Below, one piece after another: positions 16,701 to 34,988 of a DNA stretch of 36,108 bases; position 1 is the stretch's first letter, and each line of letters begins with the position of its first letter. The notes beneath the pieces are model-generated. The model was not told the origin of the DNA, searched no databases, and saw only the letters and a list, made by a program, of their open reading frames with translations. Where the stretch lies: NCBI GenBank assembly GCA_026709065.1, contig JAPOTS010000077.1:1-36108 (forward strand). Reading direction: 5' to 3'. The position numbers were made by a program, and so were the translations under genes. The DNA comes from Bacteroidota bacterium (lineage in GTDB: Bacteria; Bacteroidota; Rhodothermia; Rhodothermales; Bin80).

Positions 16701-19700
16701 ACTGTAGCCCTTGGAACCTTACCCACAAGTGTTGATCAAGGAAGCTCATATTCACATGTCATCACGATCTTAAAGGATGATGCGCCACCCCCACCGCCCC
16801 AAGTGCGTCTATCGGTCAGCCCCAATCCAGTGGATGAGGGCAAGTCTGCAACCATTACCGCAACTCTCACCAGAATATTAAACCAGACCATCACTATCCC
16901 AGTAGTGTGTACTCCGCTGAATACAACCCAGAGAAGTGACTATGATTGTCCAGCCAATGTGACAATCCCTTCAGGAGTTCTGTCTGACGATGCAATGCTG
17001 ACAACAAATATTGACGAAGATACAGACAATGAGCGATTAAGTATCGCCTTAAGCACGCACCCAAGCGTGGATATTGGTCCGTCCAGCCCAGTAACTTTGA
17101 TCATCAATGATATAACCCAGTCAGTGGCGACCCTATCGGTTTCTCACCGTCAAGTGGAAGAAGGCAGTGAGGTCAATATCACCGTTCAAGTTTCTACTCC
17201 ACCACTGGTTGCAATCTCCATTCCTGTGGAGTGTTCTTCAACTGAAGCAGAAGCAGATGACTACACATGCCCCGACGAAATTTGGATCGCCCCAAGAGAG
17301 GATTCTGGAGATGACACAATTTATATTGAAGATGATGATTTAACAGAGGATGATGAGCGATTCACGGTCACCTTAGGAACCTCTACATATCAAATCTCGG
17401 GCCCTTCGTCGCATGAAGTCACAATTTTAGCCAATGATGAAGCACTTATTCTCCTTTCACACACCTCACTGACAATTACCGAAGGATCCGATAAACGCTA
17501 TACCGTTGAACTCTCGTCAGAGCCACAAGCCCCCGTGACGATTCAGATTGCTGAATCAACTGGGAGAATCACTTGGAGTCCTCCCACACTCATATTCACA
17601 TCTACCAATTGGAATTCACCTCGGGAAGTCACGATAGAGGCAGAGGAAGATGACAATACGATGACTGAATCGACTTCCCTAACCCATACGGCAAGTAGTT
17701 CAGACATTAACTATAACGGATTATCAGACAACTTGGTGGTGACGATCCCTGATAGTGACACGCCAAATTTATTTATTGATCCCCCAACCCTTTCCATACC
17801 TGAGGGGAAATCGGACAAATTTGAAGTCAAACTTAGTACCCAACCATCCGAACCGGTCACTGTGCAGATTTCTCCATTTATGAATCCTGAACTGTCACAT
17901 GATCGGGATATTCTAAGCTTCACACCTACCAACTGGAATCAAGAGCAAATCGTCACTGTTAATGCTGGAACGGATGATGATGCAGAGCCCGATGCCCCTG
18001 AAACACTCACACTGACCGCGAGCAGAGGTGGATACAATGGGATTACGGATGAGGTCAGGGTCTCAATTCAGGAAACGGGTAGTAAGGGGATTCGTTTAGC
18101 CCCAACATCCTTGACGATTGAGGAACAGGGAGATCCTGGCACATATACAGTTGCCCTTGATTCTGAACCAACTGCCAATGTACAGGTCACCTTCAACTCA
18201 GACACGCCAAAGGCCACATTCAATCACCCCGGTTTACTCTTCACTCCCTCAAACTGGCGCATTCCTCAGACTGTGACTGTGCAAGCGGTGAATGACTCTG
18301 ATAATGCTGATGAAACCATCACATTAGTTCACACTGCCTCTGGAGGTGGTTATGACGATGAGCGCGCAGATTTAAACCTACGCATTCAGGATGAAAATCC
18401 ATTGACGGTTTCAATATTTGACGAAACCGAACGAGAAAATAATGAGAAAGTTGAGCTGCGAGTAGAACTCAGCCAACCCACAGAACTGCTGGTCAGTGTT
18501 CGATATAAAACCATTGCTGGGACTGCGTCGGCAGGATCTGATTATATTGCTTCAGAAGGGATTATATTATTTGACCCTGGATCTACAAAGGGGAGGCTCC
18601 AAATTGAACTTGAAAACGACGAATTGCCTGAGCCTGATGAGCGCTTCACGGTGCAGCTCCCAAGTGCAACCAATGCAATAATTGCTAGATCGACCGGGGA
18701 GGTGACCATTTTTGATGATGATGCCAGTGCATCAACGATCCGAATTGAGGATCAAGTGGTATCCGAATCGGATCAGACAGCTCGATTTAATGTGCATTTA
18801 TCTACACCAAGCGAGGTACCAATCGTTGTGCACTACAGGACAGAAAACGGTACAGCGAGTGCAGGTCAAGATTACTATGCACAATCAGGGATGCTGACGT
18901 TTGCCCCAGGAGATTTACAACAGGAAATTGAGGTGAATTTAGTAGGTAGTAGCTCTAATCAACAAGGAAAAACCTTCGCAGTTCATCTTGAAAGCGCAAG
19001 TAAAGCTAAGATTGAGAAAGCAGTCGCCATCGCTACCATTAATAATGACGACGATGCCATTGCTATAGATGTGATGAAAGCATACACAGCCCGATTTGTA
19101 CGAACGTCCACCATCCAAGTCTTGGAGGCAATTCGGGAAAGAAATCGCCCTATAGAGTCATCCTGCTTTGCTGATCAACGTGCGAATTTAGTGCAGTTAT
19201 GGGGCAGCGTATCAGATTGGACACCGTCTTTGGGAGAGCTTCTGGCAGGTTGCCGGGTTGTACAACAGCATGAGCGTGATGATGGATGGTTCAGTGTATG
19301 GGGGCAGGGCGCATATACGCGTTTTCATGGACAAGTCGACAATGCATTAACCTTGCGTGGTGGTGTAACCACTGGAATGTTGGGGGCTGATTATCGTTGG
19401 CAAAATGGATGGATGGCGGGCCTAATTGTTACCCGAAGTCAAGGTGATGGATCGTTTCACATTGACCAAAAAAGAGGGGAAGTTGATGCAAGCCTTACTG
19501 GCCTGGTTCCCTATGTATCGGTGCAGGGAGCAGACTGGAGTGCCTGGATGTCGATGGGATATGGGCGGGGCCAGACAGAGGTAGAGTCGCTGGATGGAGG
19601 GCTGGCTTCCATATTTGGAGCGGCTGGAGTACAAGGAAAATGGATCTCTGGTGATGCAATCGGATTAACGGTTCATGGCGATGTCCTCGTTGCAGGCGCA

Positions 19701-20297
19701 GAAGTAGCGGAACATGACATTCGTAGCGAAATCGCCCGTGTTCGCGTAGGATTGCAGGGGGCACTGAAAGTTCACGAATCAATCCGACCCTACATTGAGA
19801 CAAATGTGCGTCAAGATGGCGGAGCTGCAGAAACCGGGATTGGACTTGAGCTCGGTGGTGGTGTTCGGTTTGCGTTTGGGCCATTAAAAGGAGAGCTTCA
19901 GACCCAAGGGCTTTTGATGCATACCGCAGATGGGTTTAATGAGTGGGGCATGTCCGGCTTTGTCCAGTTTGGACGAGGCCCAGAAGGATTGACGATGGCT
20001 ATTCGCCCCTCATGGGGGCCAACTCATCTAGGAAACCTGCATCGGCAACAGACCATCTTAGATACTCGGCCTTCTACATCAAATCAGCAACGCACCGAAA
20101 TTGAATTTGCATATGGAATCCCATTAAAGGTTGGTATCGCTCGCTCAGTTGCGGGCGTGACCCAGCTGTCTACGGGTAGGATGTACCGCTTGGGGACGGA
20201 GCTACGCCCATCAGATTGGATGAGTCTCTCCCTCTTTGGCCTTGCACATTCACAGCGAGACGTAGGGCTAAATCTGAGAGGTACTCTCACCTATTGA
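13722..20297 (+). CDS. Giant Calx-beta-repeat surface protein with autotransporter-like beta-barrel
   Basis: A 2191-aa protein. Residues 1-40 look like an extended signal peptide (basic/aromatic n-region, then KEILLLGLCLVCFLPNVVLS). Residues about 150-1775 hold some 15 beta-sandwich repeats of 95-110 aa with a shared pattern: EGxSxxFxVxL, VTVxI, a NWNxxQxVTV-like strand, E/D-rich turn, LTASGGGY, and a closing DD. The last two (about 1557-1775) are canonical Calx-beta domains (GTASAGxDY). Repeats 9 and 10 carry Cys pairs. After a linker, residues about 1850-2191 form alternating strands (VWGQGAYTRF to the terminal LRGTLTY) like an autotransporter barrel ending in an aromatic residue. Probably a type V-like, self-translocated adhesin. 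It is monocistronic and convergent with the usher operon. Confidence 0.82.
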   Translation: MLRIYFSIYFNSVAEFETQLKEILLLGLCLVCFLPNVVLSQVQPVPITPHVDKDSLAQFRFVEGESSSPLHVSIGVGDGRDPSLESTEFWDMGGVDLFRLGDSRIDDFEIYEFDELIGPVWNLNQGDLENVQSDNSRNKLAGLQIGNAQNISQNSITILEGNSTTFTLSLTAQPTSDVTATITGHVGTDLILSDAVFTFTNLNWNTQQEITLTANQDTDAIHEDPIQLTFTYSGANNIPSNSVTVTILDDEISWSYPPRRVREGHGINYRVELLDQLTPPSGDVTFTISGHQGTDLIPLADQLVFQHSKWQISQRLTFITTADIDDQEDEVTVTLTASGGGFDGLKYTADITITERVPFDEYVPEGESILSKTYYLLLSNLRSYNTSVSINNYQGTDLSVDPTTHIIPPSGFTRCYPYCDVEIYPTETIYYYYISEPFQSRLTAAEDPDAKDDHVYLQMRTSSGRNALILVTIGDKNAPSLIVSPIELSITEGQTGSFNVKLSDAPLGNLGNNDVNVSIIRENFSDLTPDQYSLTFNSSNWDVAQVVRLSARDDSDIEDDDFEVVSLLASGGGFDDKRGRVNVTIVDNDEGSLVIRPDPLNVDEGSSKFFAVSLDSKPKNRVTVNISEFSKPDLTRTPAILTFLPTDFNTVQQVRVRAYNDVNSINESDTLTITASGGGYDDTYKLPVNVNDLGVAELVIDPESLDIHEGGSDSFEVFLTIEPTSEVTVTIPAFNTESIAHNSGALTFNSSNYNEPQSVTVEALEDVNDNTESETITLTASGGGYADVTGQLQVNVIEDDEGVADLNIVPKSLDIHEGGSDSFEVSLTIEPTSEVTVTIPPFNNTESLARNPESLTFTPSDYSLPQLVTVEALQDENHINESETITLTASGGGYTDLTGTISITALDPTVSLLASPTTVSEEDEVAVIVDVSMSLQTDLSIPIVYEPNGENPATYSDDYTGPSEITILAGRLRGTGQISILSDESTEPTNETFTVALGTLPTSVDQGSSYSHVITILKDDAPPPPPQVRLSVSPNPVDEGKSATITATLTRILNQTITIPVVCTPLNTTQRSDYDCPANVTIPSGVLSDDAMLTTNIDEDTDNERLSIALSTHPSVDIGPSSPVTLIINDITQSVATLSVSHRQVEEGSEVNITVQVSTPPLVAISIPVECSSTEAEADDYTCPDEIWIAPREDSGDDTIYIEDDDLTEDDERFTVTLGTSTYQISGPSSHEVTILANDEALILLSHTSLTITEGSDKRYTVELSSEPQAPVTIQIAESTGRITWSPPTLIFTSTNWNSPREVTIEAEEDDNTMTESTSLTHTASSSDINYNGLSDNLVVTIPDSDTPNLFIDPPTLSIPEGKSDKFEVKLSTQPSEPVTVQISPFMNPELSHDRDILSFTPTNWNQEQIVTVNAGTDDDAEPDAPETLTLTASRGGYNGITDEVRVSIQETGSKGIRLAPTSLTIEEQGDPGTYTVALDSEPTANVQVTFNSDTPKATFNHPGLLFTPSNWRIPQTVTVQAVNDSDNADETITLVHTASGGGYDDERADLNLRIQDENPLTVSIFDETERENNEKVELRVELSQPTELLVSVRYKTIAGTASAGSDYIASEGIILFDPGSTKGRLQIELENDELPEPDERFTVQLPSATNAIIARSTGEVTIFDDDASASTIRIEDQVVSESDQTARFNVHLSTPSEVPIVVHYRTENGTASAGQDYYAQSGMLTFAPGDLQQEIEVNLVGSSSNQQGKTFAVHLESASKAKIEKAVAIATINNDDDAIAIDVMKAYTARFVRTSTIQVLEAIRERNRPIESSCFADQRANLVQLWGSVSDWTPSLGELLAGCRVVQQHERDDGWFSVWGQGAYTRFHGQVDNALTLRGGVTTGMLGADYRWQNGWMAGLIVTRSQGDGSFHIDQKRGEVDASLTGLVPYVSVQGADWSAWMSMGYGRGQTEVESLDGGLASIFGAAGVQGKWISGDAIGLTVHGDVLVAGAEVAEHDIRSEIARVRVGLQGALKVHESIRPYIETNVRQDGGAAETGIGLELGGGVRFAFGPLKGELQTQGLLMHTADGFNEWGMSGFVQFGRGPEGLTMAIRPSWGPTHLGNLHRQQTILDTRPSTSNQQRTEIEFAYGIPLKVGIARSVAGVTQLSTGRMYRLGTELRPSDWMSLSLFGLAHSQRDVGLNLRGTLTY
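15831..15926 (+). repeat. Near-identical intragenic DNA repeat, copy 1
   Basis: These 96 bases differ from 16155-16250 at only three positions by my reading. They encode the start of repeat 6 (from about residue 704). The offset between copies is 324 bp, i.e. 108 codons, so frame is preserved. Confidence 0.85.
16155..16250 (+). repeat. Near-identical intragenic DNA repeat, copy 2
   Basis: Second copy of the 96-base segment at 15831-15926, encoding the start of repeat 7 (from about residue 812). A further shared block of about 36 bp lies at 16034 and 16361. Other repeats in the gene are far more diverged, pointing to a recent duplication or gene conversion. Confidence 0.85.
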
Positions 20298-20618: not shown

Positions 20619-21314
20619 CTAATTGTGTGAGGGGCGTTCTCCTTTTGCCGACAGGGCATACGCACTGGCAATCGTCCATTTCTTTAATGTATTGTATCGC
20701 TTACGTAGCGATGCTTGCAAGAATACATTCAGCGGCCAAAGGATCAGACGCACGACCAATGCCAACATAGTAGACACCACGGCAATACCTAAACCAACTA
20801 AGTCAGACCCCTCATGCCGGCTACCACTCATAAAGAGAACAAAAATTCCAAGAAGGGTTCCAAGCAATCCAAGACTCAAGGCGATATACACGGCCGCTGT
20901 GATGTAGCGTTCCGTTTCTTTGTACCTTTCATGATCAAGTCTAATGAATTGAAAAGCATAATCAATCATTGATTGAGATGTGCCTCCACGATTGTATTCC
21001 TCAAGAATCAAACTCCCAATGACGACAAAAGGATTGCGTGTTTTACTCTGTTCAATGGAATGAGAGAATTCATGTTCAGTCATATTCTCCACATTGATCT
21101 TGAGCATAGAATTACTGCCTCGCCATTGTAAAAATTGTCTGACATAGGCAGAGATTAACATAAATAAGCCAATGACAAACAATGCACCCAGAGGCCACTC
21201 AAAGCCCTGAGCATACTGGATAATATCCCACGGGGTCAGAGGGATCGGAGATTCATTCGCTGCCTGGCCAGAAACAGGCATAGCAGCTTGAACAAAGAGT
21301 AAGAAATTTATCAT
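20619..21314 (-). CDS. ExbB/TolQ/MotA-family proton channel subunit
   Basis: A 231-aa inner-membrane protein with three visible helices: about residues 40-60, and the paired helices in AAVYIALSLGLLGTLLGIF and GLGIAVVSTMLALVVRL, the signature of the MotA/TolQ/ExbB superfamily. These proteins form the pentameric stator channel that uses proton motive force. The frame extends upstream to 21404, but ATG 21314 is preferred because the longer form would overlap the usher gene by 77 bp and the extra residues look non-coding. It is the last of eight genes. It should pair with the two ExbD-like proteins encoded upstream. Confidence 0.85.
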   Translation of the reverse strand: MINFLLFVQAAMPVSGQAANESPIPLTPWDIIQYAQGFEWPLGALFVIGLFMLISAYVRQFLQWRGSNSMLKINVENMTEHEFSHSIEQSKTRNPFVVIGSLILEEYNRGGTSQSMIDYAFQFIRLDHERYKETERYITAAVYIALSLGLLGTLLGIFVLFMSGSRHEGSDLVGLGIAVVSTMLALVVRLILWPLNVFLQASLRKRYNTLKKWTIASAYALSAKGERPSHN

Positions 21315-21327
21315 AAGGGAGGTAATG

Positions 21328-23790
21328 TTAACGAATTTGGAATGATTGAGTCCGTACAGGTTGAACTTCCAATATCTGTGTATATCCACTGAGATCCTCA
21401 ACACCTAATAAATCTATGAGTTCAACGCGATAGCTACCAGGCGGCAACAGCGCAGTAAACTGTCCCTGCTGCGAAACTGCTGCCCGAAGCACTTCTGTCT
21501 GCCCCTGATAGAAAATGACAACGGCCAAAGTTGGAGAACTCAGAGGAAGATTCTCTAACACGCCTGTAACAATAGTATTACGATGGATTGGTATTTCAAT
21601 GTATTTGGTTTCGCCCGGATCAGATAGGAAGCTAAAACTGGTTCCTGTGGGCAGATCAAGTTCTGGCCCTTCAATAGACCGCGGATCAATCACGACCTGA
21701 TACTGAGTACTCGGAACTAAATAATCTGCCCTAAATGTGCCAGATCCGTCAGCTTCCGTTCGGGCTCGCATCACATTAAGATCCAAACCATCATAAGGAA
21801 TTTCTCCTTGATTACGCCTCCCATCCCGATTGGTGTCTACAAAGGGGCGCAGGAGTGCACTACTCCATAGCTGAGATTCTCGGGAAAAGAGTAATCCACG
21901 GCTCAGTGACATTGAGCCATAGAAGCTCTGCTGGTTATAGGGGTTGTTTGGTTCAAACACCGTATGGCTTGAAAAACCTGCCCACGGGGCATTCATTCGA
22001 ATAGAAATTGATGTGTTGATCGCTTCAGCAGGGATGTTGTATCCGATACGTGCACCAAATGAGAATCTGCGATAAGACGCATGAACGGTCAGCCCTGCAA
22101 AATCAAACGATTCATAGCGCCCGCCTTGGCCTTGAAACCCAATTCGACCACGCACGCCTCTAATTTGACTGTAACGCGTGAGCGAGGTGCGCCATTGAAT
22201 TCGAGTATCACTGGGAGTATCTGACTGGAATTGTGTCATTCTGGGGCCTCCAGCAAAAATCAAACTGATTCGACGAGACAGCCGAAACGTGCCAGATCCG
22301 TCTAACTGCATAGTGGTATTTCCCCCAAATGATTCAAAACGTGTTCCATTAATAAATAGGCTCATCCCACCAACATTCCAACCAGCACGTCCAACAAAGC
22401 GCTGACGATAGTAGGTTAATCCCGGTTCAGTCGCCATCTCTGCCTCAGTTTGCAATTGAAACTGTCGACTAAACCACTGCAATGTAGCACGAAAAGCAGG
22501 ATTGGGATAAACGACCTCACCGCTAAACATAGTAGATCCCCCAATGTTAGTCACAATTCCGAGGGATGCCGCCTGTATGGAATCCACTTGCGAAAAGCTC
22601 CCGAGCGTGGTAATATTGTCTGAAATACCATAACTCAACCGAAGTTGCCCATAACTAGCAGAATGATCATATTGGTTACGACCAGCCTGTAAGTCCCAGT
22701 ATAACGTTTTGGATGGCAATAAATCCTCGGTGATCAATAAATAGCGGGTTTGCCGAGTGGGTATTCCTCCATTGGCTGGGACGATCTCCAATTCAACACC
22801 TGATGTCCCGTAATAGGCAGGAACAGACAACTGATAACGACCCTGCCCATCGGCCTGAACTCGGCTAGCCACCACCCCACCTACCAGTGCAGAAACTAAC
22901 GCGTTCGGCTCAGCAACCCCATCTAGCTTGGCCTCCCTCTGCTGATGACGCGTCGAAAGAGGGCGATTACTCATCTGAATCCCTTCATAGGTTTGTCGCA
23001 CAGGCCATTGATTGACATTAGCGCGACCCAGTGCAAACTGGGTGAGATATGCAGAGCGAGGAAAATCAAGCGTATAACTAAATTGCCTTAGGGTCGTCGT
23101 CCCTGAATACGAAGTCGTGGCATCCGCACGTAACTGTCCCCATAGCGCACTCGCACGCACACTCAAAAAACCCGTATAATCAATATCACGCCCCGAATAA
23201 TGTGTGCGATTAAACCGATACCCAAGTTGAGTACCTCCGATAAAACGCCGATTCCGACCATAGAGCATCGGCCCAATCCCAAGCCTAGGGGAAAGAACTT
23301 GAGGACGAAACTCATCGGCAAATAATACTTGCGAAGGACGAAGGATCAACTTATCAATATCATAGGTCAGCGCTCCCAGAGGGAAAATCCGTTCAAGATT
23401 GGAGGGGGTCAACAGATAACGTTCCCCATTAAGGAAATAACCACCAGTGATAAGTGTATCGCTGTGCTGCATACCGTTCTCAGACTGGCGTAAGAACGTA
23501 CCTCCAGCAAAATCGACTTCATAGGCCCATTGATTATTCGTAGCCTTGACCACCATTTGGGGGGTGTCCACCTTCATGTTGAGTGCCGTGAACACCGCGA
23601 CCACATCAATGAAGTATGCTTCCAGATCTGGATCCAAAAAGGCTGCTACAGGGCGAACAGGTTGTGATAATGATGACACGGGGCTCAAGAGCCACGGTGA
23701 CTCCTGCAACACACGTATCTGATCTTGCGCCTGAGCGGTCAGTGTTAAAAGCAAAACTAGAATACCCCAGCAAGATTTCTTGATCCTCAT
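21328..23790 (-). CDS. Outer-membrane usher-like protein (PapC/FimD/CS1-usher related)
   Basis: 820 aa with a signal peptide (MRIKKSCWGILVLLL... AQAQ). The order matches an usher: an N-terminal periplasmic domain (FLNGERYLLTPSNLERIFPLG), strand-rich barrel, a plug-like beta-sandwich (about residues 270-370: YEGIQMSNRPLST, NALVSALVGG, GQGRYQLSVPAYYG), more barrel, then a C-terminal PFVDTNRDGRRNQGEIPYDG segment and a final beta domain (about 740-820). Fimbrial ushers export and assemble surface fibres from chaperone-bound subunits. A TTG at 23802 opens the frame, but ATG 23790 is preferred. The assignment rests on domain order and motifs; similarity to classical FimD is remote. It sits between a TPR lipoprotein and an ExbB-like gene. 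Confidence 0.7.
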   Translation of the reverse strand: MRIKKSCWGILVLLLTLTAQAQDQIRVLQESPWLLSPVSSLSQPVRPVAAFLDPDLEAYFIDVVAVFTALNMKVDTPQMVVKATNNQWAYEVDFAGGTFLRQSENGMQHSDTLITGGYFLNGERYLLTPSNLERIFPLGALTYDIDKLILRPSQVLFADEFRPQVLSPRLGIGPMLYGRNRRFIGGTQLGYRFNRTHYSGRDIDYTGFLSVRASALWGQLRADATTSYSGTTTLRQFSYTLDFPRSAYLTQFALGRANVNQWPVRQTYEGIQMSNRPLSTRHQQREAKLDGVAEPNALVSALVGGVVASRVQADGQGRYQLSVPAYYGTSGVELEIVPANGGIPTRQTRYLLITEDLLPSKTLYWDLQAGRNQYDHSASYGQLRLSYGISDNITTLGSFSQVDSIQAASLGIVTNIGGSTMFSGEVVYPNPAFRATLQWFSRQFQLQTEAEMATEPGLTYYRQRFVGRAGWNVGGMSLFINGTRFESFGGNTTMQLDGSGTFRLSRRISLIFAGGPRMTQFQSDTPSDTRIQWRTSLTRYSQIRGVRGRIGFQGQGGRYESFDFAGLTVHASYRRFSFGARIGYNIPAEAINTSISIRMNAPWAGFSSHTVFEPNNPYNQQSFYGSMSLSRGLLFSRESQLWSSALLRPFVDTNRDGRRNQGEIPYDGLDLNVMRARTEADGSGTFRADYLVPSTQYQVVIDPRSIEGPELDLPTGTSFSFLSDPGETKYIEIPIHRNTIVTGVLENLPLSSPTLAVVIFYQGQTEVLRAAVSQQGQFTALLPPGSYRVELIDLLGVEDLSGYTQILEVQPVRTQSFQIR

Positions 23791-23805
23791 CAACGATTGC
23801 AAGAA

Positions 23806-25389
23806 TTAATCCCCAGTCTGATTACGTATCATCCGAAATCGGGACAGAAAAGACGCAGCCTTTTCATTGTTGCCAATACGCCGATACAAATTCCCCATCT
23901 CACGCAAGTAGTTCAACTTATCTTCCTTCGGAAATTGATCAAATGCATTTTCAATTTCTGACTCCATACCTAATGCTTGTTCAGGGTTATAGCGCGCCAG
24001 TTTAAGGGCCTCAACATACGCCCTACCAGCGTAACTGCTTTGTGTCTCTACGACCTGCATCAAATAAGTGAACGCACGGGCAGACTGTCCCTCTTGGTGA
24101 TGAGATAATGCACGCTCAAATAATGCACCCGAATAGGCCAAACGTACATCTTCCTTAAATTGAGGATAAGGCATTGAAGCGAGGCTTAACGTATCGGATG
24201 CATCGGTGCTTGGGGCCATGACAGGAACTGGGGTAAAGTCTTTGATTGTATACCAGAGTCCTTTCAAGGTATCTAATGCTGAATCTTCTATTCCATTACT
24301 GTGGGATAAAATGGCATGGTTATACGTGGCCTCCCAAATCGCAGTATTCCGGGTAAGCTGAGGGATGAGATTTCTCAATTCAGCAATGACCTCAAGTGGG
24401 GAATCCGAAGCAACCGTACGTAAGCTGTCAAACACCAAACGATGGTCTAAATTAAAGAAGTCCCATTGGGCCCAATTGAGCTCCTGGGTGGCAAAATTAA
24501 ATTGTTCATCATTGGTTGCATACTGACGGGACTGCATCAATGCACGGAAGACACCTTCGCCGTTTCTGCTATTGACAAATGAGCGGTATGCACGTACACC
24601 GTAGTTGAAGACCAATGCACTGTCAACGATGGCATCATCAAATGACAGCTCAGCATCATCAAGAACTGTCTGAGTAGCGCGAAGCCACATTACAGCACTC
24701 AGAGATGTGCGCTCAAGTTGATCCAGTGCGAGAGCAATCTCTGCCCATAACCCGTGCTCATCAGCACGTAGTAACACTAATTCTCTTAAAATAGAGAGCA
24801 TCTGCTCCCATGCCTGCTGCTCCCGAAGGAAATTAGCACGGATCGCATACACTTGGGCGAGTTGATACCTTGACTCTTCGTGCCGCGGATTCAACATGAC
24901 CGCTTGTTCAAATCGTGACTGTGCATTCGCTAAAAGGCCCAATACTTGAGCCGTATCCTGAGATGCCTGAGCACGGGCGGCAGCCGAGAGTGACTCTTGA
25001 GCACCAGCTAATGCATCTGTAAATGAGGTGGTATCTACGGTCGTAGGCTCCTGAGAAATACTGGATAGAACGGAGGGTCCCGCTACATCCGTTAAAAGGC
25101 TTTCAGCATAATTAATCAATCGTTGTCCTTCCAAGTATTGGGCTGAGGCCTGCACTTGAGCATCGGCATGGACAAAGGTGCTATCAAAGTCTTCTATGAC
25201 CTCGTTGATAACGAGCGAATCAATTCCTGGTAACGGTGCCGACACAAATGCGACGGGTTCAGGTTCGGGGTTGATCACTGGAGGCGGGCTCTCTACCACT
25301 GCCGCGGTCCCTCCACATCCAAACACTACCGTGATTGATAGAATTGATAACCAGTGACCTACGTTTGTTATGTAGTTAGGTTTGTTCAT
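23806..25389 (-). CDS. TPR-like periplasmic lipoprotein
   Basis: A 527-aa protein with a signal anchor and lipobox VVFGC (Cys near residue 25), a Pro/Glu-rich linker, then helix-rich TPR-type repeats from about residue 135 (ALAGAQESLSAAA, ANAQSRFEQAVMLNPRHEESRYQLAQVY) through the C-terminus (AGRAYVEALKLARYNPEQA, LREMGNLYRRIGNNEKAASF). It is probably anchored to the outer membrane as an assembly scaffold, comparable in role to TPR proteins in Tol-Pal (CpoB) or gliding (GltE) systems; that comparison is inference. It is 3 bp from an ExbD-like gene and 15 bp from the usher-like gene. Confidence 0.75.
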   Translation of the reverse strand: MNKPNYITNVGHWLSILSITVVFGCGGTAAVVESPPPVINPEPEPVAFVSAPLPGIDSLVINEVIEDFDSTFVHADAQVQASAQYLEGQRLINYAESLLTDVAGPSVLSSISQEPTTVDTTSFTDALAGAQESLSAAARAQASQDTAQVLGLLANAQSRFEQAVMLNPRHEESRYQLAQVYAIRANFLREQQAWEQMLSILRELVLLRADEHGLWAEIALALDQLERTSLSAVMWLRATQTVLDDAELSFDDAIVDSALVFNYGVRAYRSFVNSRNGEGVFRALMQSRQYATNDEQFNFATQELNWAQWDFFNLDHRLVFDSLRTVASDSPLEVIAELRNLIPQLTRNTAIWEATYNHAILSHSNGIEDSALDTLKGLWYTIKDFTPVPVMAPSTDASDTLSLASMPYPQFKEDVRLAYSGALFERALSHHQEGQSARAFTYLMQVVETQSSYAGRAYVEALKLARYNPEQALGMESEIENAFDQFPKEDKLNYLREMGNLYRRIGNNEKAASFLSRFRMIRNQTGD

Positions 25390-25392
25390 GAA

Positions 25393-25752
25393 TCAATTTG
25401 AATTGACTAAGAAAGTTGCATTTCTGCCAGCATTCTGGATCACACGATTCACACTCAGCAGCAAAAATGCGGGTGCCGACTCATCGGCATGAATCTCAAC
25501 GATCTGATTGGGCTGAATGGTTTGAGCTAATCCAAAAAGTCTGTCAGGGGGTAATAGTTGCTGTTCATTGGAAGAATCCAGATAATAGATTTCGCCGTTC
25601 TCGTCGATGGAAATCTGTAATGGGCGAAGAATTAATCCGCTCTCAGAAATCTCTTGGCTCACTGGCAGGTCTATATCAAACTCTGGCACGACGGCCACCG
25701 CAACCAAAGAAGCCAATATGATCAAAACGATATCTACCATTGATTCATCCAT
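25393..25752 (-). CDS. ExbD/TolR-like protein 2
   Basis: 119 aa with a five-residue cytoplasmic stub, one helix (MVDIVLIILASLVAVAVV) carrying the Asp expected for proton relay, and a periplasmic domain with the ExbD-type VEIHADESAPAF strand and SVNRVIQNAGRNATFLVN helix-strand end. It should form the rotor/plug dimer within the ExbB-like pentamer. The start overlaps the TonB-like gene by 8 bp. The N-terminus is unusually short for ExbD. Confidence 0.8.
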   Translation of the reverse strand: MDESMVDIVLIILASLVAVAVVPEFDIDLPVSQEISESGLILRPLQISIDENGEIYYLDSSNEQQLLPPDRLFGLAQTIQPNQIVEIHADESAPAFLLLSVNRVIQNAGRNATFLVNSN

Positions 25753-26779
25753 TTTCCAAAGCGTCTATTTGCGGTTTCCACCAATTGACAAAGATCTGAT
25801 ATTCCCGACGTGCTTGGGGGCTTTCCGCCGAAAGCTCCTCAGTCTCCAAGAGAACCACTTCCATTACCTCCCCTCGTTCTACAATCCCTTCCTCAAAGTA
25901 ATTGATCTGATACTGCAATGCAGGGTCTACAAAGTAGTAGATTTCCTCCCCATCAATCCATGCAATATGAAGGGTTCGGTTAATGGGGGAATACATCATC
26001 TGCAGGTTATAGGTGTTGGGACCTATGATGACCATCTCATTGATGGTCAAATCTGAAGATTTTTGCTCAAAGACGGTTCGAACAGGGCGATCTAATTCAT
26101 TAAGACGCTCCAGCATCCAGCGAATCACGGCATTCTCTCGTATAATCTCTTCCGAGGTCAGAGAAACATCTTCATCAAAGTCTTCAACAATGGATTCTAC
26201 AAGACGGTCAGGTTGATCGGGGCGAAGCACTAACTCAGCTTGAGATACATCAACTCCAGAGCTGAGTTGGGAGTTGCCGACGGAAACAGATCCAGTTACG
26301 ATATTGGGTTTCAGCGTCCATGATGCGGTGGATTTTTGAGGGGCGAGATTTGGATCCAGATCGTTTGAGCTGCTACTTCCAAAAATGCCCAGATCATCTT
26401 GTCCACCAAAATCCAATCCAAAATCCGCTTGAAGCGCCAATGATTCTGTCTCTCCTCGATCTGACTGCGTTGCATCCTCTTCAATGAGTTTGAACGATGA
26501 CATCTCTGTAAAACTTGACAACAGCTCATCTAATTGTTCGGCAGTGGCTTCGGGCTCCGAAACTTCATCCTCTATGGGAGGTTCGGTTGACTCTTCGGCA
26601 GCCACGGCCATTTCAATGGCCTCCAACATAATCAGGTCTAGTGATCGATCCACGCGATCTCGACGAGGCATTGGAATGACGTTGCTGACAATCACAATAA
26701 ATCCTAGTACTAGTACGAACAACCCAATGGTAATTGGTTGTCCCTTTTTGTCAGCTTCATGTTGGAATAAATTAGTCAT
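25745..26779 (-). CDS. TonB-like membrane-anchored periplasmic protein
   Basis: 344 aa with one N-terminal helix (ITIGLFVLVLGFIVIVSNVIP), then a long acidic, Pro/Glu/Ser-rich linker (about residues 60-200) and a folded, beta-rich C-terminal domain (about 215-344, including MVIIGPNTYNLQMMY and LHIAWIDGEEIYYF). This topology is that of TonB/TolA energy transducers, but I do not see a standard TonB C-terminal motif. Lying between two ExbD-like genes, it is the natural candidate to carry energy from the proton channel across the periplasm to the usher-like protein. Function is inference. Confidence 0.6.
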   Translation of the reverse strand: MTNLFQHEADKKGQPITIGLFVLVLGFIVIVSNVIPMPRRDRVDRSLDLIMLEAIEMAVAAEESTEPPIEDEVSEPEATAEQLDELLSSFTEMSSFKLIEEDATQSDRGETESLALQADFGLDFGGQDDLGIFGSSSSNDLDPNLAPQKSTASWTLKPNIVTGSVSVGNSQLSSGVDVSQAELVLRPDQPDRLVESIVEDFDEDVSLTSEEIIRENAVIRWMLERLNELDRPVRTVFEQKSSDLTINEMVIIGPNTYNLQMMYSPINRTLHIAWIDGEEIYYFVDPALQYQINYFEEGIVERGEVMEVVLLETEELSAESPQARREYQIFVNWWKPQIDALENG

Positions 26780-26785
26780 GAATAC

Positions 26786-27172
26786 TCAGTTGTTAACGGT
26801 GCAGGTCCACTTCTTGAACTCACATAAATCCAGGAGTTCTACCAGCTCCTGCACACTCGCCTGCAGAGTCGGAATGAGAACAAATACAACACCTGTGCGG
26901 GACTCAACGATTTGACTCATACAAGCCTCAAGCGACTGTATTGACACCAGATCACAGAACGTCTGTACACCATCCTCAATCCAGAAGCGTTGATCCCCAG
27001 AAAAGTGTAAGTTATGGACCGTTAACTCTAAGGGTTGGCTTTGAGCTTGCTCAACATCTCCAGGGAGTGCAACATTATTGCGGGGCGTGGTTTCTGTCAA
27101 GAGCAGAAACCCCACTAAAAGCACGAAGCCGAGATCAATAAACACCATTAAGTCGCTCCGATCCTCATTCAT
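26786..27172 (-). CDS. ExbD/TolR-like protein 1
   Basis: 128 aa: cytoplasmic MNEDRSDLM, one helix with the proton-relay Asp (FIDLGFVLLVGFLLLT), then NVALPGD like the ExbD periplasmic start, and a C-terminal domain ending in LVELLDLCEFKKWTCTVNN. ATG 27172 gives the standard ExbD N-terminus and a 4-bp gap from the gene upstream; longer starts overlap it. A second, divergent ExbD-like gene follows the TonB-like gene, so the motor probably has two different ExbD-type subunits. Three Cys residues lie in the periplasmic part. Confidence 0.8.
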   Translation of the reverse strand: MNEDRSDLMVFIDLGFVLLVGFLLLTETTPRNNVALPGDVEQAQSQPLELTVHNLHFSGDQRFWIEDGVQTFCDLVSIQSLEACMSQIVESRTGVVFVLIPTLQASVQELVELLDLCEFKKWTCTVNN

Positions 27173-27176
27173 TTTT

Positions 27177-27896
27177 TCAATCGCATACACGGGAAGAAAT
27201 TTCGGCACTACTGCTAGACGACTCAACAATGACACAACCATCTATATCTAAAAACGAGCGAATCTCTGGTTGTTTGTGCGCAATGATCGTCACGGATTGT
27301 TGCCATGTTGGGGGCTCGAGACACTGAGACACACCAGGTATAAATTCCCATTTGGATTCATCATAACCCCAAAATGAGATTTGCACATCTTGATCTTTCC
27401 GCGAAATATATCCCTGAAAATCTCCGTCTGAATAATAACTCTCAATAGTACGAATCATCGTGCTTGCTAGAGCTTTTTTAGGGTCCATTTCATTTTCAGC
27501 TTCTTCGGTGAGTAGTTCAGCGTACTCACGAATGGTCACGAGGTTATAGTCTGTGGCTAAGCCTTGAGTGCGCAGTGCATCTGCAATACTGCTAGATAGG
27601 TATGCGCCAAGTTGAAACTGCTCTTGCGAAGGATAGAGAACCAACGCATCATTTGATCCAAATCCGTCTCGGGTGATGTCATATAGCACCGCATACTCAA
27701 TCTCAGTTTCTTCAGGTAGGATGAACTGTTCTTCTAAAAGTGACTGAATGAATTCTTGGCTATTGACCTGCACTACGGGGACGACGCGTTGCGTAACATA
27801 TCCATCTTGGCCAAAGACAGGAATTCCCGTTATTAGGATCAAGATACCGAGACAGACAATCCGAAAAATAGTTTTAGGTAAGAAAGAATATATCAT
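27177..27896 (-). CDS. Secreted protein of unknown function in the usher-Exb operon
   Basis: 239 aa with a signal peptide (FRIVCLGILILITGIPVFG-QDG). The mature part has a mixed alpha/beta composition, an YAVLYDITRDGFG segment, an acidic helix, and a C-terminal third with Cys pairs (SQCLEPP, DIDGCVIV, SSRVCD) after a Ser run. No family is recognised. It starts inside the stop codon of the 1285-aa adhesin-like gene (ATGA overlap), so it is probably co-translated and works with it, perhaps as a minor subunit or periplasmic factor. Confidence 0.7.
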   Translation of the reverse strand: MIYSFLPKTIFRIVCLGILILITGIPVFGQDGYVTQRVVPVVQVNSQEFIQSLLEEQFILPEETEIEYAVLYDITRDGFGSNDALVLYPSQEQFQLGAYLSSSIADALRTQGLATDYNLVTIREYAELLTEEAENEMDPKKALASTMIRTIESYYSDGDFQGYISRKDQDVQISFWGYDESKWEFIPGVSQCLEPPTWQQSVTIIAHKQPEIRSFLDIDGCVIVESSSSSAEISSRVCD

Positions 27897-30800
27897 GAAT
27901 TGGGCGAAAGAATAATATTAGGGGGTGAGCCCTGATTTGGGGCAGATGATTCAAACCTGAGGATCAGATCACCCTCTGGTAGCGAATCCAATTGAATGCG
28001 CACACGGCTACGCGTATAGATCAAGACTTGGGATCTTCCTACCTGATCTCCCGATTCGTTCTCCACAATGACCTCACCATAAAATGGGATTCCCCCCGTT
28101 TCTAGAAGGAGAACTAAATCTGAATTCGTCTTTGATTCCAGCGATGCCTGAATCGGAGCGGGGCGAGAAGTATAGATTCCTGGTGCCTGAAATGTGACTC
28201 TAGCATTGGTTGTAGTGGGAGACTGGCTTTGGTTAATAAATTCGCGAGGAGTCACCGTAAAATTAAACATTCCTGCATAGCCTTGTTCTTGCAACTCAGC
28301 ATCATCAGCAATACCATAGTGAACCGACTGAGTTTCCCCAGGTGACAGCAACACTACTGTAGGATGTACCGCGACAATCGAGGTTAAATCTCCTTGTACG
28401 TCTTCTTGAGTCGTCACGCCAACAGAAAATCGCTCATCCTCCCGTGCTTCTCTGTAGCCAAATTCTAGGTCCACTTCAACCTCCATAGGATAGACGGACG
28501 GGTTCATAAGCTTAAAGGTGCCAGATCGAGTCTGCGGAGTCAAGACCGCGACTTGGGGCTGGATGCTAATGCTTTGTTGCCATTCTAATGAGGCTCCAGT
28601 GCCAGAAGCCGCGCGGAAGCCGACACCCTCGGGTCCTAATAATACCGTACGCCGCTCGGGCTCGACGCTCACCACGACTGGAATAGTTTTTAGCTGATCA
28701 AGGCCGTTAACCGTTAGCGCGACTGGAACCTGACCAGAATACAATCCTGGCTCGGTATTATCAAGGTTAATTTCTCCTCCAATCCGTAAGATTTGACAAT
28801 CATCTGGACGCATTGAGATCTGCAAAATCCGACTCGTCTGGTTATTTGCGGAGAATGTTGAACAGGATTCAGAGTTGGCTAATTGTGGCATGAGCATCAA
28901 TTCACGACCTGAATCTACATGGGATAATATAACTGATGGAAGTTGTTCTACGGAGACGGTGACGCTATCGCGGGCGACAATCATCATCCGCCCTGAGTGT
29001 GACTGTGCCCCATCGTAGACGATGCCAGAGATCAACTCTGTTGAAGGGTCAATCAGGATCTGTCCATTGGGTCCTACTACTCCAAAATCCAATTCTGATA
29101 CCGTAATCTCTACTTGTTGCACTATTTCTTCTAAGGGGCTGAGCACGATGACCGATACCGATGTCTGGGCTTCAATTGCACCCTCCGCCGAGACTGTAAC
29201 TCTATAGTCATAGGAAAATGAGTACTCTTGCTGTCGCGATGGAACATTAAACAACGGGCTTCCAGTTTCTTCATTTGTGAGACGCTCGGTTGGTGTCCAG
29301 TCCCACATGTATTCTAATTGCGCGCCTTCTTCGCTAGAGACGCTACATTCAATTGGCTGAGGCGATGCCCCGACTGTGACGACTAGTTCTTCTGGACACT
29401 CCAAAGAAATTGAATACTTCTCAATAGTAACCGTTAATGTCTCTGGATCTGGCGAAGGGGTTGCTTCAGGCGAAAATGCGTTGACCATATACGTATATGT
29501 GACAACTGCTTCTGGCTGATCAGCAGGGACATTGAAAGTCGGCATTCCACTATTGCGATCTCCTGTAAGAAGCGACAGCCCACTCTCTGAATTCCATTCC
29601 CACGTATAATCAAGTGGTTGATCAGGGTGTGCGGGGTCGGTCGTTGCCCTGCACATGAGTGGAAGCGGATCATCGCCTGGCCGAACAGTAATATCATCAC
29701 AGTCAATCTCAATGAATCTTGGTAAAACTTCAATTACTACTGTCTGTGGATCGGAATCCTTAAACTCGGGGGCCTCAACATGGATGTCATACGTATAGGT
29801 TTCAGTGGTCTCAACTGTGATTGGTACTTCAAAAATGGGAGGGGATCCTGGCGAGCCTTTTAACGGTCGGTCACTTGGACCATCTTGTTGTTCCCACTTA
29901 TACAAAAGGTTTGGAACCTGACCCTGCGCAGATGTGCAACTTAACTGTTTATCTGGATCTCCCGCAAATATTTCAATTGGACTATCGCAATTAAGAGATA
30001 GTTGCTCCAAATTTATCACGGTAACACTAATCCTACCTAGATTTTCAGGCGGATCTGTGGTATTGCCTGCGTTAATTGTTTTGGCATCCACTTCATATGT
30101 ATATGTGGCTCTTGGTTCATCTTGCTCCGAAGCATCTGGGACATTGAAGGTTCGACTTTCAGGATAATTAGGGTTTTCTGGTGACAGAAGTCGCTCTGCC
30201 ATAAGTCTATTCTCTCCGACAGCCTCCCAAGTATATGTAAAAACAGGATCTTCTTGTAGATCTGGATCGTGTTTCCACTCTGTATCAGCTTCGCATATAA
30301 GTGTTAAAGGTAGCTCACCAGTTTGTACCGTCATATCATCACCACATGTAATGATAATGTCTGGTTTCTCAAGAATCATTATGTTAACATCATATTCTAC
30401 GCTTGGTGGGATAACATTGTCAACTCTATCAATACGCGCTATAACTTTATAATTCCAAATTAAATCAGCCTCAACATCATTCAATAAATTAATAAGGAAC
30501 ATAAATAAATTACGTTCTTGATCAAAGTCCTCATCAGGTGAAAAAACGGGAATGGGGGCTCCTGCTTCTGCACTAAACTGCCAAATCAAATCTTCTGACG
30601 GAGGATCTTCTACCACACAACTAACCCTTAAATCTTCTGGGATCAATCCTTCGTACTGTTTAAAGGGCAAGGGATGCCCCTTCTCCTCTTTACAGTCGAG
30701 TTGAAAATCTAAAGGTGCGCGAGTTTGTTGAACGTTCAGCAGAAATTCCGCTTCTGCAACAGTGTTCGCTTCACCAAAAGCACGTACGGTCACCAGTACA

Positions 30801-31750
30801 GACCTATCTTGGTTGACCTCTGGAACAGGAATTGTAGGCCAATCATTGAATATTTCTGGTGAAATTAGATCTGATAATATCTGAATCCGAGGTGAACCCG
30901 CACCAGTAATTGAGCAAGGAACCTTGACCTGCTCCCCTTCAACAACAGTGATATCCTGACACTGAAGTTTAGGTGCGCGATTGATAACATGAATTTCTAC
31001 CTGCTCCGAGACAATCCGTCCAACATTCGGCATTTCAATATATAGCTCTAACGTTTGAACCGATGTAGCACTCTCAATGACCGGGGCTCGAACCATATAC
31101 ACAAATTCCCCCTCAGCGACAAGTTCAGTCGTGCTATATGGAGGCCAATCAAACTCAACATGATAATTCAAAAATCCTGCTGATTGATTGAGTCCTGTAC
31201 AAGGAATTTCAACCAACGCTCCACTCTCCACCGTGATAGGTGAAGCACACTGCAAATAAGGTAAGTCACTGGACACTACACCATCGGCATCAAACGGCAG
31301 CTGTATGGTATTCGCTACACCTGCCCCTGAGTAAATGCCATCCAACAGAAATTGGTCTCCCCCCCCCCGTATTATTGACTCGGTATCATTAGTTTGAAGC
31401 CCCCCCCCATTTTGCACGGTCACTGACACACGAGATTGATTTACTGGATCTCCAGTTTGATCAAAGACTATTCGCTGGTATACTATGTTCAGCGGTGAGT
31501 CTATATTTTCAGGGGCACGAAATTCTGGCGAAGCTTTTCCTAAATCGCTCAAATAGGCCAGTAATGAAGGATTCTGACTAACCCACTGATACGTATAATC
31601 AGGGGATGTCTGGATTCCACAGTCGATCAGAGTTGATGTGCCAGGTGTCACATATAGGTCATCCGAAATACAATCCTCAAAGAGCTGATCCTGTGCAAAT
31701 GCAGACGCTGTAATGACCGTTGCTAATAAAATACACGGAAGTATTTTCAT
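27893..31750 (-). CDS. Large adhesin-like protein: Ig-like repeats, DUF4402/pilin-like domain and PapD-like chaperone region
   Basis: 1285 aa with a signal peptide (MKILPCILLATVITASAFA). Residues about 25-875 contain eight Ig/PKD-like units, each opening with a Cys, a V-x-x-G turn and a second Cys, and often closing with a YTYEV-type strand. Residues about 885-1020 match DUF4402, found in fimbrial subunits of chaperone-usher loci (ELDFGVVGP, SGRMMIVARDS, ILRIGGEINL, PGLYSGQVPVALTV). Residues about 1050-1283 look like a PapD-type two-domain chaperone (VAVLTPQTRSGTFKLMNPS, HPTVVLLSPGETQSV, TSRPAPIQASL). Chaperone and subunit are normally separate proteins, so their fusion is unusual. It is the first gene of the operon. 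G9 and G10 tracts near residues 115 and 128 make it a phase-variation candidate. Confidence 0.68.
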   Translation of the reverse strand: MKILPCILLATVITASAFAQDQLFEDCISDDLYVTPGTSTLIDCGIQTSPDYTYQWVSQNPSLLAYLSDLGKASPEFRAPENIDSPLNIVYQRIVFDQTGDPVNQSRVSVTVQNGGGLQTNDTESIIRGGGDQFLLDGIYSGAGVANTIQLPFDADGVVSSDLPYLQCASPITVESGALVEIPCTGLNQSAGFLNYHVEFDWPPYSTTELVAEGEFVYMVRAPVIESATSVQTLELYIEMPNVGRIVSEQVEIHVINRAPKLQCQDITVVEGEQVKVPCSITGAGSPRIQILSDLISPEIFNDWPTIPVPEVNQDRSVLVTVRAFGEANTVAEAEFLLNVQQTRAPLDFQLDCKEEKGHPLPFKQYEGLIPEDLRVSCVVEDPPSEDLIWQFSAEAGAPIPVFSPDEDFDQERNLFMFLINLLNDVEADLIWNYKVIARIDRVDNVIPPSVEYDVNIMILEKPDIIITCGDDMTVQTGELPLTLICEADTEWKHDPDLQEDPVFTYTWEAVGENRLMAERLLSPENPNYPESRTFNVPDASEQDEPRATYTYEVDAKTINAGNTTDPPENLGRISVTVINLEQLSLNCDSPIEIFAGDPDKQLSCTSAQGQVPNLLYKWEQQDGPSDRPLKGSPGSPPIFEVPITVETTETYTYDIHVEAPEFKDSDPQTVVIEVLPRFIEIDCDDITVRPGDDPLPLMCRATTDPAHPDQPLDYTWEWNSESGLSLLTGDRNSGMPTFNVPADQPEAVVTYTYMVNAFSPEATPSPDPETLTVTIEKYSISLECPEELVVTVGASPQPIECSVSSEEGAQLEYMWDWTPTERLTNEETGSPLFNVPSRQQEYSFSYDYRVTVSAEGAIEAQTSVSVIVLSPLEEIVQQVEITVSELDFGVVGPNGQILIDPSTELISGIVYDGAQSHSGRMMIVARDSVTVSVEQLPSVILSHVDSGRELMLMPQLANSESCSTFSANNQTSRILQISMRPDDCQILRIGGEINLDNTEPGLYSGQVPVALTVNGLDQLKTIPVVVSVEPERRTVLLGPEGVGFRAASGTGASLEWQQSISIQPQVAVLTPQTRSGTFKLMNPSVYPMEVEVDLEFGYREAREDERFSVGVTTQEDVQGDLTSIVAVHPTVVLLSPGETQSVHYGIADDAELQEQGYAGMFNFTVTPREFINQSQSPTTTNARVTFQAPGIYTSRPAPIQASLESKTNSDLVLLLETGGIPFYGEVIVENESGDQVGRSQVLIYTRSRVRIQLDSLPEGDLILRFESSAPNQGSPPNIILSPNS
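31359..31368 (-). repeat. Poly-G tract (G10) in coding strand of adhesin-like gene
   Basis: Ten C on the plus strand, read as ten G in the gene, encoding Arg-Gly-Gly-Gly at about residues 128-131. It lies 31 bp after the G9 tract. Paired tracts allow opposite slips to restore frame. Confidence 0.9.
31400..31408 (-). repeat. Poly-G tract (G9) in coding strand of adhesin-like gene
   Basis: Nine C on the plus strand, read as nine G in the gene, encoding Gly-Gly-Gly at about residues 114-117 (NGGGLQ). Slippage by one or two bases would shift the frame and truncate the protein early. Confidence 0.9.
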
Positions 31751-33348: not shown

Positions 33349-34485
33349 CTATCCTTTGTTAACCAAGAACAGAAATTCTTGATGTTTTTCCTGAGACTCA
33401 CTAATCCAGTCATGTGTCCACTTCATTTCGGCCATCACATTTTTTCTGTAATCAATTCTGCGTACTTTTGTTAATTCTCCGTTGTTGGTGAGAATCTCAT
33501 TCAACTCCTCTGCGGTACTTCTTCCCGATGAACTGTAAGACAGTAAAATCCATTTTGCACGAGTTTTTTTGATCAACCTTTCGATTGCCTCAACAGCGAA
33601 ATACTTATCCGTTGAAGGATTGCGCCTGAATTCTTCAAATACAGAGCCTACAAGGCGGTCAGATGAGTCAGTTCTTCTATTAGCCTTCCCAAAAAGTGCT
33701 GGTTTATCATTGAGACAAATGGTAGTCCATGGATGGTAATACGATGCATATCTGACACGAGAGGGAGGCATTTTTTCATTGTTTGAACCATAAGGTGGGT
33801 CATAGTATGCTAGGTCAACAGAATTATCTACAACGTCAAAAATATCTTTTTGAAGCACGATGTGTTTTGTATTTTGAGCAAAGACTCGGGGGACCTCAAG
33901 GTTTAATTTATTGTATGATCTTGGTGCCCATTCTTTAAGATATGCGACATAGTGCCCCAAGGTATTATCTACTTTATCCAAAGCGAGTATAAGACTAGTA
34001 AGTGCAACAGATTTTTCAATAGGCGAAAGGCACATTTCATCTATTCTGTCTCGCACTCCGTCCAGCTTCATGGTATTATGTATTTGCCAAGGTCTTTTGA
34101 GCCCATCATTTTGAATTGCTAGTCCACCATTAGGATATCCGCCATAGTAGTGTGTAAACCAACCTTTTTTTGGTGGAGTGAGCCGTAATTCCTGAATTAG
34201 GGAATCATAAGCATCCTTCGAATTTCGATTTAACATATAGCATGTTCCGAACACTTCTGACCATGTTGATATATCGTTGCATACAACTTGATATCCTGAC
34301 TTTGCCAGGGCCTGAGAAACACGTGTTGACCCAGAAAATCCATCTAGAATCGTCTTTGCCCCCGTCCAGGCAACCATTTCAAGTATGTGAGGAAGCAGTT
34401 TTAGCTTTGATCCGATATACTTGACACTTTCTGTTTCAGGAGATTCAACAATACAGTTTTCAAAAAGAGAGGCGCGGGACAACAT
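33349..34485 (-). CDS. D12-class (alpha) N6-adenine DNA methyltransferase
   Basis: A 378-aa type II modification enzyme. Seen: motif X-like KYIGSK (residues 22-27), SAM-binding motif I LDGFSGSTR (47-55), and catalytic motif IV DPPYG beginning at Asp229, with the recognition region between I and IV, i.e. the alpha order of the MethyltransfD12 family. It should transfer a methyl group to adenine N6 in the site recognised by its partner nuclease. ATG overlaps the nuclease stop (TGATG). The recognition sequence cannot be predicted from sequence here. It appears intact although the nuclease is frameshifted. Confidence 0.9.
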   Translation of the reverse strand: MLSRASLFENCIVESPETESVKYIGSKLKLLPHILEMVAWTGAKTILDGFSGSTRVSQALAKSGYQVVCNDISTWSEVFGTCYMLNRNSKDAYDSLIQELRLTPPKKGWFTHYYGGYPNGGLAIQNDGLKRPWQIHNTMKLDGVRDRIDEMCLSPIEKSVALTSLILALDKVDNTLGHYVAYLKEWAPRSYNKLNLEVPRVFAQNTKHIVLQKDIFDVVDNSVDLAYYDPPYGSNNEKMPPSRVRYASYYHPWTTICLNDKPALFGKANRRTDSSDRLVGSVFEEFRRNPSTDKYFAVEAIERLIKKTRAKWILLSYSSSGRSTAEELNEILTNNGELTKVRRIDYRKNVMAEMKWTHDWISESQEKHQEFLFLVNKG

Positions 34486-34988
34486 CAGTGACCATCCATT
34501 TTTTTAAGCCTCTCAATGTCTTCCATTACTTTTTCCAATGCTTCTTTGTGGCCTATTTCACTTGAAACCAGAGCATGAGAGAACAACTTAACCAGAATCA
34601 AATTATGTGAATAATCAATCCATCCACTCGTAATACTTTTGAAGTATTCTGCGCCATTTTTGGTGTGAGTCCATAGTCCACGCTGAAGTGCATTCGCAGA
34701 GGCTCCACCATAACGAACTTCACAGACATAGTTTCCTTCATTATTCAAGAATTTGTAAACAGGATGTTTTCTTCCCTTTCCAGAATTGATACGAACGATG
34801 CGGGCAACTTCTTCCTTGGCTTTGTCATAATTGAAAATCATGATGTTGCAACGCTGTACATTCTCGTCATAGATCAGGGGAAGCACATTAATTTCATCAA
34901 AAACGCTGAATGCAGAATCAGAAAATATACTTTCAATGACAGACCTATCAGAAACCTCCGCTCCCTCTTTCTCAAGTCGTGGAAACAT
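34485..34988 (-). CDS. Type II restriction endonuclease, C-terminal part (frameshifted)
   Basis: 167 aa from ATG 34988, but the same frame is open further upstream, reading AYGVGPLQLSTDKSFL before MFPRLEKEG, which directly continues the sequence of the preceding minus-strand frame. Notable motifs: CEVRYGGASANALQRGLWTH and SGWIDYSH. Together the two frames would make one protein of about 280 aa, a typical size for a type II endonuclease. Its stop overlaps the start of the methyltransferase gene. As a separate protein it would probably be inactive. The ATG at 34988 is unlikely to be a natural start. Confidence 0.65.
   Translation of the reverse strand: MFPRLEKEGAEVSDRSVIESIFSDSAFSVFDEINVLPLIYDENVQRCNIMIFNYDKAKEEVARIVRINSGKGRKHPVYKFLNNEGNYVCEVRYGGASANALQRGLWTHTKNGAEYFKSITSGWIDYSHNLILVKLFSHALVSSEIGHKEALEKVMEDIERLKKMDGH

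Follow-up and report, generated by a model that had tools for sequence, protein, structure and literature searches.

Chaperone-usher fibres have been described as passive adhesins, exported with the N-terminus of the tip protein leading and the chaperone-bound pilin domain passing last, through an outer-membrane usher (PapC or FimD) in which a plug lies between strands 6 and 7. Among the 5:2 proton motors of the Ton, Tol and Agl systems (ExbBD-TonB, TolQR-A and AglRQS), TonB is the component that opens receptors, and the Agl motor contains two unlike ExbD-type proteins, AglQ and AglS. Assembly by the chaperone-usher pathway requires no external energy (PMC4654587), and modules of the type TolQ-TolR-TolR-TPR, equipped with vWA force transducers, have been reported whose function is unknown (PMC12204202).

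The window considered here (the whole stretch of DNA that was analysed, 36,108 nucleotides in length) belongs to the genome assembly of an uncultured Rhodothermales bacterium, 3.3 Mb in 139 contigs, and carries an operon in which a predicted structural relative of the chaperone-usher apparatus is encoded together with a putative 5:2-type motor. Eight open reading frames, all on the minus strand of the ORF list, fill positions 20619-31750 (Table 1). Their raw spacing ranges from -77 to +6 bp; with start codons chosen by fit to relatives (27172 for ExbD1, M24; 23790 for the usher, M5; and 21314 for ExbB, M31), the spacing across the operon becomes -8 to +15 bp. This agrees with an initial annotation, made from the sequence alone, that had described eight minus-strand genes with overlaps or with gaps of 15 bp or less. 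The usher-, chaperone/pilin-, ExbB-, ExbD- and TPR-like identities that it proposed were also upheld, whereas its TonB assignment survives as a matter of layout only, the protein having no TonB_C match. It further remarked that no described system with this set is known, and the open-licence papers searched here yielded none that pairs an usher with either ExbBD or FliG.

Table 1. Genes and predicted domains of the operon (window coordinates; residue numbers refer to the encoded protein).
Feature	Coordinates	Strand	Basis
Gene 1, adhesin-like, 1285 aa; predicted signal peptide, Ig/PKD-like repeats, pilin-like and chaperone-like domains in a single chain	27893..31750	-	ORF; Ig_3 and PKD matches; domain HMMs
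Predicted DUF4402-type pilin domain, gene 1 residues 858-1013	28712..29179	-	HMM from separate pilins of the sister operon, i-E 3.6e-17
Predicted PapD-like two-domain chaperone, gene 1 residues 1057-1269	27944..28582	-	HMM of stand-alone chaperones, i-E 6e-29; AF2 model
Gene 2, secreted/periplasmic, 239 aa, travels with motor genes	27177..27896	-	Co-occurrence with TonB-like gene
ExbD-like protein 1 (ExbD1); start M24 of a longer ORF ending at 27241	26786..27172	-	PF02472, 28.1 bits; invariant Asp
TonB-like candidate force transducer, 344 aa; N-terminal TM, low-complexity linker, conserved C-terminal domain	25745..26779	-	Alignment
ExbD-like protein 2 (ExbD2)	25393..25752	-	PF02472, 23.1 bits; TolR model, 28 bits; invariant Asp
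TPR lipoprotein, 527 aa	23806..25389	-	TPR matches; lipobox
Predicted divergent outer-membrane usher, 820 aa; ATG M5 of a TTG ORF ending at 23802	21328..23790	-	AF2 model; Foldseek and VIA matches to FimD and PapC
ExbB-like motor protein, 231 aa; start M31 of a longer ORF ending at 21404	20619..21314	-	PF01618, 28.1 bits; Thr of LGTL and second TM Thr invariant

The eight-gene operon is real and recurrent. A search of 79 relatives placed the usher in 21 genomes, and the host genome itself contains a second usher, 27% identical to the first and located beside another ExbB. Related loci in named records come from metagenome-assembled genomes, nearly all of them Rhodothermales. Two layouts recur: a window type (gene 1, gene 2, ExbD1, TonB-like, ExbD2, TPR, usher, ExbB), in which some genomes place gene 1 ahead of the usher, and a sister type (gene 2, pilins, chaperone, usher, in some cases a further pilin, ExbB, ExbD2, ExbD1, TonB-like, TPR). 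Both are present in the host genome, where the sister operon (contig 65, L035) encodes the same motor as the window type together with separate small secreted proteins of ordinary pilin size, two of which match DUF4402 (PF14352), and a stand-alone protein of PapD size directly ahead of the usher. Recurrence of the gene set across genomes was what the initial annotation had asked to see, and it is observed in both arrangements. Incomplete loci also exist, one (L051) having no detected motor and another (L056) apparently having neither ExbD nor TPR genes; the latter, in which the usher, gene 1, gene 2 and the TonB-like gene are kept, is possibly a decaying copy.

Pairwise distances also grouped concordantly for each machine gene compared. 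The two layouts are cleanly separated by distances for the usher, ExbB, TPR protein and gene 2, and are separated with slight overlap by those for the TonB-like gene (maximum within a layout 0.80, minimum between layouts 0.77), while pair distances are correlated between usher and ExbB (r = 0.90, or 0.83 within types) and between usher and TPR protein (0.95). Among 395 genomes of the phylum, gene 2 (16 genomes) and the TonB-like gene (17 genomes) are found together in 16, and both are present in 11 of the 12 genomes whose usher match is strong. The corresponding co-occurrence p-value, approximately 1e-16, is inflated by relatedness among the genomes and so overstates the case; the existence of two layouts and the exchange of partners weigh more. 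One genome (G014) contains four copies of the window-type operon (L036-L039) that are 93-100% alike, indicating recent amplification; the idea that they represent a diversifying adhesin under a constant motor is unsupported, that degree of likeness extending to all genes compared.

The 820-residue protein is predicted to fold as an usher of the PapC/FimD type. Its AF2 model, which was built from 14 sequences and is of moderate confidence (pLDDT 72, pTM 0.47), displays a signal peptide, an N-terminal domain, six strands, a plug-like insert at approximately residues 290-341, a further 18-20 or so strands and two C-terminal beta domains. In a Foldseek comparison of that model with the PDB, the 17 best matches were all FimD or PapC, with E-values down to 8e-26, and its alignment by VIA to the PapC pore gave a Z-score of 21.6 (410 aligned residues, rmsd 4.5), as compared with 14.7 for the best non-usher barrel. 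The initial annotation had held that failure of this 821-codon gene to fold as an usher would point to chance adjacency; layout, Foldseek and VIA all place the modelled protein among the ushers. At the level of sequence, the Pfam Usher model (PF00577) matched only one of 18 usher relatives, at an E-value of 0.13, and missed the protein of the window, and no meaningful Pfam match was returned for the usher, the TonB-like protein or the 239-residue protein. An alignment of 18 usher rows proved too diverse to support a pattern search.

Gene 1 unites, in one chain, elements that are separate in the sister operon. Pfam detects only Ig_3 and PKD fragments in it; models constructed from the stand-alone pilins and chaperones of sister operons, however, identify both a pilin and a chaperone domain near its C-terminus, so that adhesin-like repeats, a DUF4402-type pilin and a PapD-like chaperone are joined covalently. 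Of 14 gene-1 proteins searched, all contain the chaperone domain and 12 also the pilin domain; the window gene and most of its relatives share the fusion, and gene-1 proteins ranged from 713 to 2246 residues among the loci that were read. When an AF2 model of the C-terminus was compared by VIA, the top rows were nearly all fimbrial chaperones (YadV, Caf1M, FimC and CsuC, with Z-scores of 11-13.6), a result to be read with the moderate confidence of both the usher and gene-1 models (pLDDT 72-73, pTM approximately 0.5, 13-14 sequences). PapD sequence models were absent from the 11 chaperones searched, with a weak PapD_N match in one class-level relative.

Because existing usher and PapD sequence models miss these proteins, the operon is best filed as a structural relative of chaperone-usher systems rather than as a member of a described clade. 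It resembles the systems typified by PapC/PapD, FimD/FimC and the archaic Csu in its usher fold, plug position, C-terminal domains, two-domain PapD-like chaperone and pilin-like subunits, and differs from them in the fusion of pilin to chaperone and in the possession of a dedicated proton motor. Chaperone-usher by fold, it lies outside the described clades both by sequence and by phylum, its Rhodothermales (Bacteroidota) host falling outside the phyla given for such systems in PMC4654587. If these assignments are correct, chaperone-usher systems extend into the Bacteroidota in a form that current sequence models miss.

The ExbB-like protein and the two unlike ExbD proteins retain the proton-path residues expected of a functional motor of the 5:2 type. 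The Pfam scores of ExbB and ExbD1 exceed their cut-offs, and that of ExbD2 falls just below the PF02472 cut-off of 25.4 bits. In an alignment of 18 ExbB rows, which takes in two proteins from usher-linked MotA-type loci, the threonine of the LGTL motif and a second transmembrane threonine (VST in the window) are invariant, as is the transmembrane proton-binding aspartate in alignments of both ExbD types. The 344-residue protein resembles TonB in layout alone (transmembrane segment, linker and C-terminal domain): neither TonB_C nor a TolA C-terminal domain was matched in Pfam searches of 14 relatives or among PDB sequences, and neither a family nor a solved relative was found for its C-terminal domain. 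The N-terminus of the TPR protein carries a lipobox (TVVFGC-GG) whose cysteine is kept in most relatives, and gene 2 has no Pfam, NCBIfam or PDB match. The protein with the TonB-like layout and the TPR lipoprotein are co-inherited with the usher and motor.

By sequence, the motor belongs to the ExbB/TolQ/MotA family. It shares with the Ton, Tol and Agl motors the ExbB threonines, the ExbD transmembrane aspartate, a membrane-tethered candidate transducer and two unlike ExbD proteins; in contrast to those systems, no TonB_C domain was found in the operon, and the outer-membrane partner would be an usher rather than a TonB-dependent receptor, Pal or Glt proteins. Its composition is that of the TolQ-TolR-TolR-TPR modules (PMC12204202), which likewise combine one TolQ, two unlike TolR proteins, one TPR gene and one tethered transducer, the differences being a transducer domain with no Pfam match and the inclusion of usher and adhesin genes in the set. 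An ordinary TonB nutrient system was considered and rejected: the operon contains no TonB-dependent receptor, and a separate ExbB-ExbD-ExbD locus is present on contig 135.

Additional loci demonstrated that motor and usher are each found with other partners. In five genomes (L141-L145), an ExbB/ExbD/ExbD/TonB-like/TPR/gene-2 module is present and no usher was detected; one of these modules runs off its contig on the ExbB side. The upstream genes, where annotated, encode a barrel of the PorP/SprF family, a large FG-GAP/Big_5/CARDB protein bearing a CHU_C signal for type IX secretion (T9SS), and a TPR protein. Related 5:2 motor modules appear to be combined with different partners in the outer membrane, a modularity that would become testable. 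Bacteroidota gliding, which relies on a GldLM motor, an SprB adhesin and an SprF barrel, is similar in concept, a proton motor there too working on a surface adhesin, and the usher-free module has PorP/SprF and CHU_C proteins as neighbours; the operon differs in having ExbB/ExbD rather than GldL/GldM, and an usher and chaperone rather than SprF and T9SS. A search for GldL gave no match in the host genome, but its control also matched nowhere.

A profile search returned usher matches in 78 of the 395 phylum genomes, mostly weaker and from class- and phylum-level relatives, and a chaperone homologue was found near the usher, usually directly ahead of it, in 19 of 20 such loci that were read (the exception lying on a short contig). 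In one fully annotated locus, DUF4402 proteins, a chaperone and the usher are accompanied by a 622-residue protein that joins a FliF C-terminus to three FliG domains, a TPR lipoprotein, MotA, and a MotB-OmpA-SPOR protein. The same usher-rotor-stator arrangement occurs in three more loci of class-level relatives (L099, L102, L104 and L108 in total), and comparison of coordinates revealed FliG-bearing frames of 600-700 residues adjoining a homologous usher in 16 genomes. The presence of FliF-FliG/MotAB genes beside homologous ushers strengthens a functional link between usher and motor. Such modules also occur away from ushers, and many homologous usher loci of more distant Bacteroidota have no motor alongside, so the usher family is not motor-dependent everywhere. 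A flagellar remnant in the host genome was rejected, as no FliG was found there. Stand-alone cassettes of FliF-FliG, a secreted protein of about 360 residues, a lipoprotein, MotA and MotB (L148-L151) were observed in genomes that have usher loci elsewhere.

The explanation that we favour, with somewhat better than even confidence, is that the proton-driven inner-membrane motor acts on the usher-displayed adhesin, for movement or for force-controlled adhesion. The usher would thread gene 1 with its N-terminus first, and, since a chaperone fused to the pilin domain cannot leave, the usher would keep hold of the adhesin as its anchor point. The ExbB/ExbD motor would then turn or pull the TonB-like arm, which might reach the usher, the chaperone domain or the TPR lipoprotein, so that the adhesin is moved or tensioned; surface motility or force-controlled adhesion would be the likely outcome. 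In the sister operon, the same action would be exerted on a polymer of separate pilins. The initial annotation had already suggested that a motor driven by proton-motive force acts on an usher through a TonB-like arm; the usher fold, the recurrence and a second motor type beside homologous ushers give that proposal partial support, and the arm resembles TonB in layout only, with no TonB_C match. A broader proposition, which we regard as evenly poised, is that the class and its relatives hold a motorised chaperone-usher family in which at least two proton motors (ExbB/ExbD with a TonB-like arm, and FliF-FliG with MotA/MotB) drive usher-anchored adhesins or pili as a new class of rotary or pulling appendage. 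If that is true, an usher with its own proton motor, and a second motor type on the same usher family, would constitute a new kind of surface machine, and the operon may represent a means of moving or tensioning surface adhesins that has so far gone undescribed.

According to the main rival, the motor supplies energy for export or assembly through the usher, with proton force either opening the plug or pulling a very large repeat protein through the pore. The size of gene-1 proteins, far above that of usual pilins, and the predicted plug-like insert between strands 6 and 7 are both consistent with such a role, for which PopC and Oar provide a precedent of TonB-dependent export (PMC6434023). 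The sister operon, however, combines the same motor with pilins of ordinary size, and many homologous ushers manage with no motor nearby; moreover, as known chaperone-usher assembly is described as free of any need for external energy (PMC4654587), the presence of a dedicated motor points to a role that follows or goes beyond assembly. In the usher-free module, the motor's neighbours are an SprF-like barrel and an adhesin-like protein, and the simplest reading is that the motor works on an adhesin on display. Together with the fused pilin-chaperone, that module favours such action over powered polymer export; the latter is unlikely, though by no means negligible.

A distinctly unlikely alternative makes the motor a module for envelope maintenance, or one like Tol-Pal, with which the usher genes are only co-regulated. 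One ExbB, two ExbD proteins and a TPR protein do resemble the TolQ/TolR/TPR modules of unknown function (PMC12204202), and the set is also found with no usher; in that usher-free form, however, the usher's place is taken by a different barrel of the outer membrane and a large secreted protein carrying a T9SS-type signal, usher and motor genes separate jointly by operon type, and a different type of motor is tied to the same usher family. Chance adjacency of unrelated genes, which the window by itself could not exclude, is rejected as exceedingly improbable, given two layouts recurring across genomes, the concordant grouping by operon type and the co-occurrence (inflated by relatedness) noted above.

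Other features of the same genome lie apart from the operon. On contig 115 (L147), another ExbB-like gene adjoins a gene that by eye encodes a Ser/Thr kinase-like protein, and several unknown genes, in what appears to be a separate motor-like module. Within the window, positions 13722-20297 encode, convergently with the operon, a 2191-residue protein of Calx-beta repeats whose C-terminal part is an autotransporter-like barrel, and positions 33349-34988 contain two adjoining minus-strand genes, by eye a DNA methyltransferase and a possible partner, that are perhaps the remnant of a restriction-modification system.
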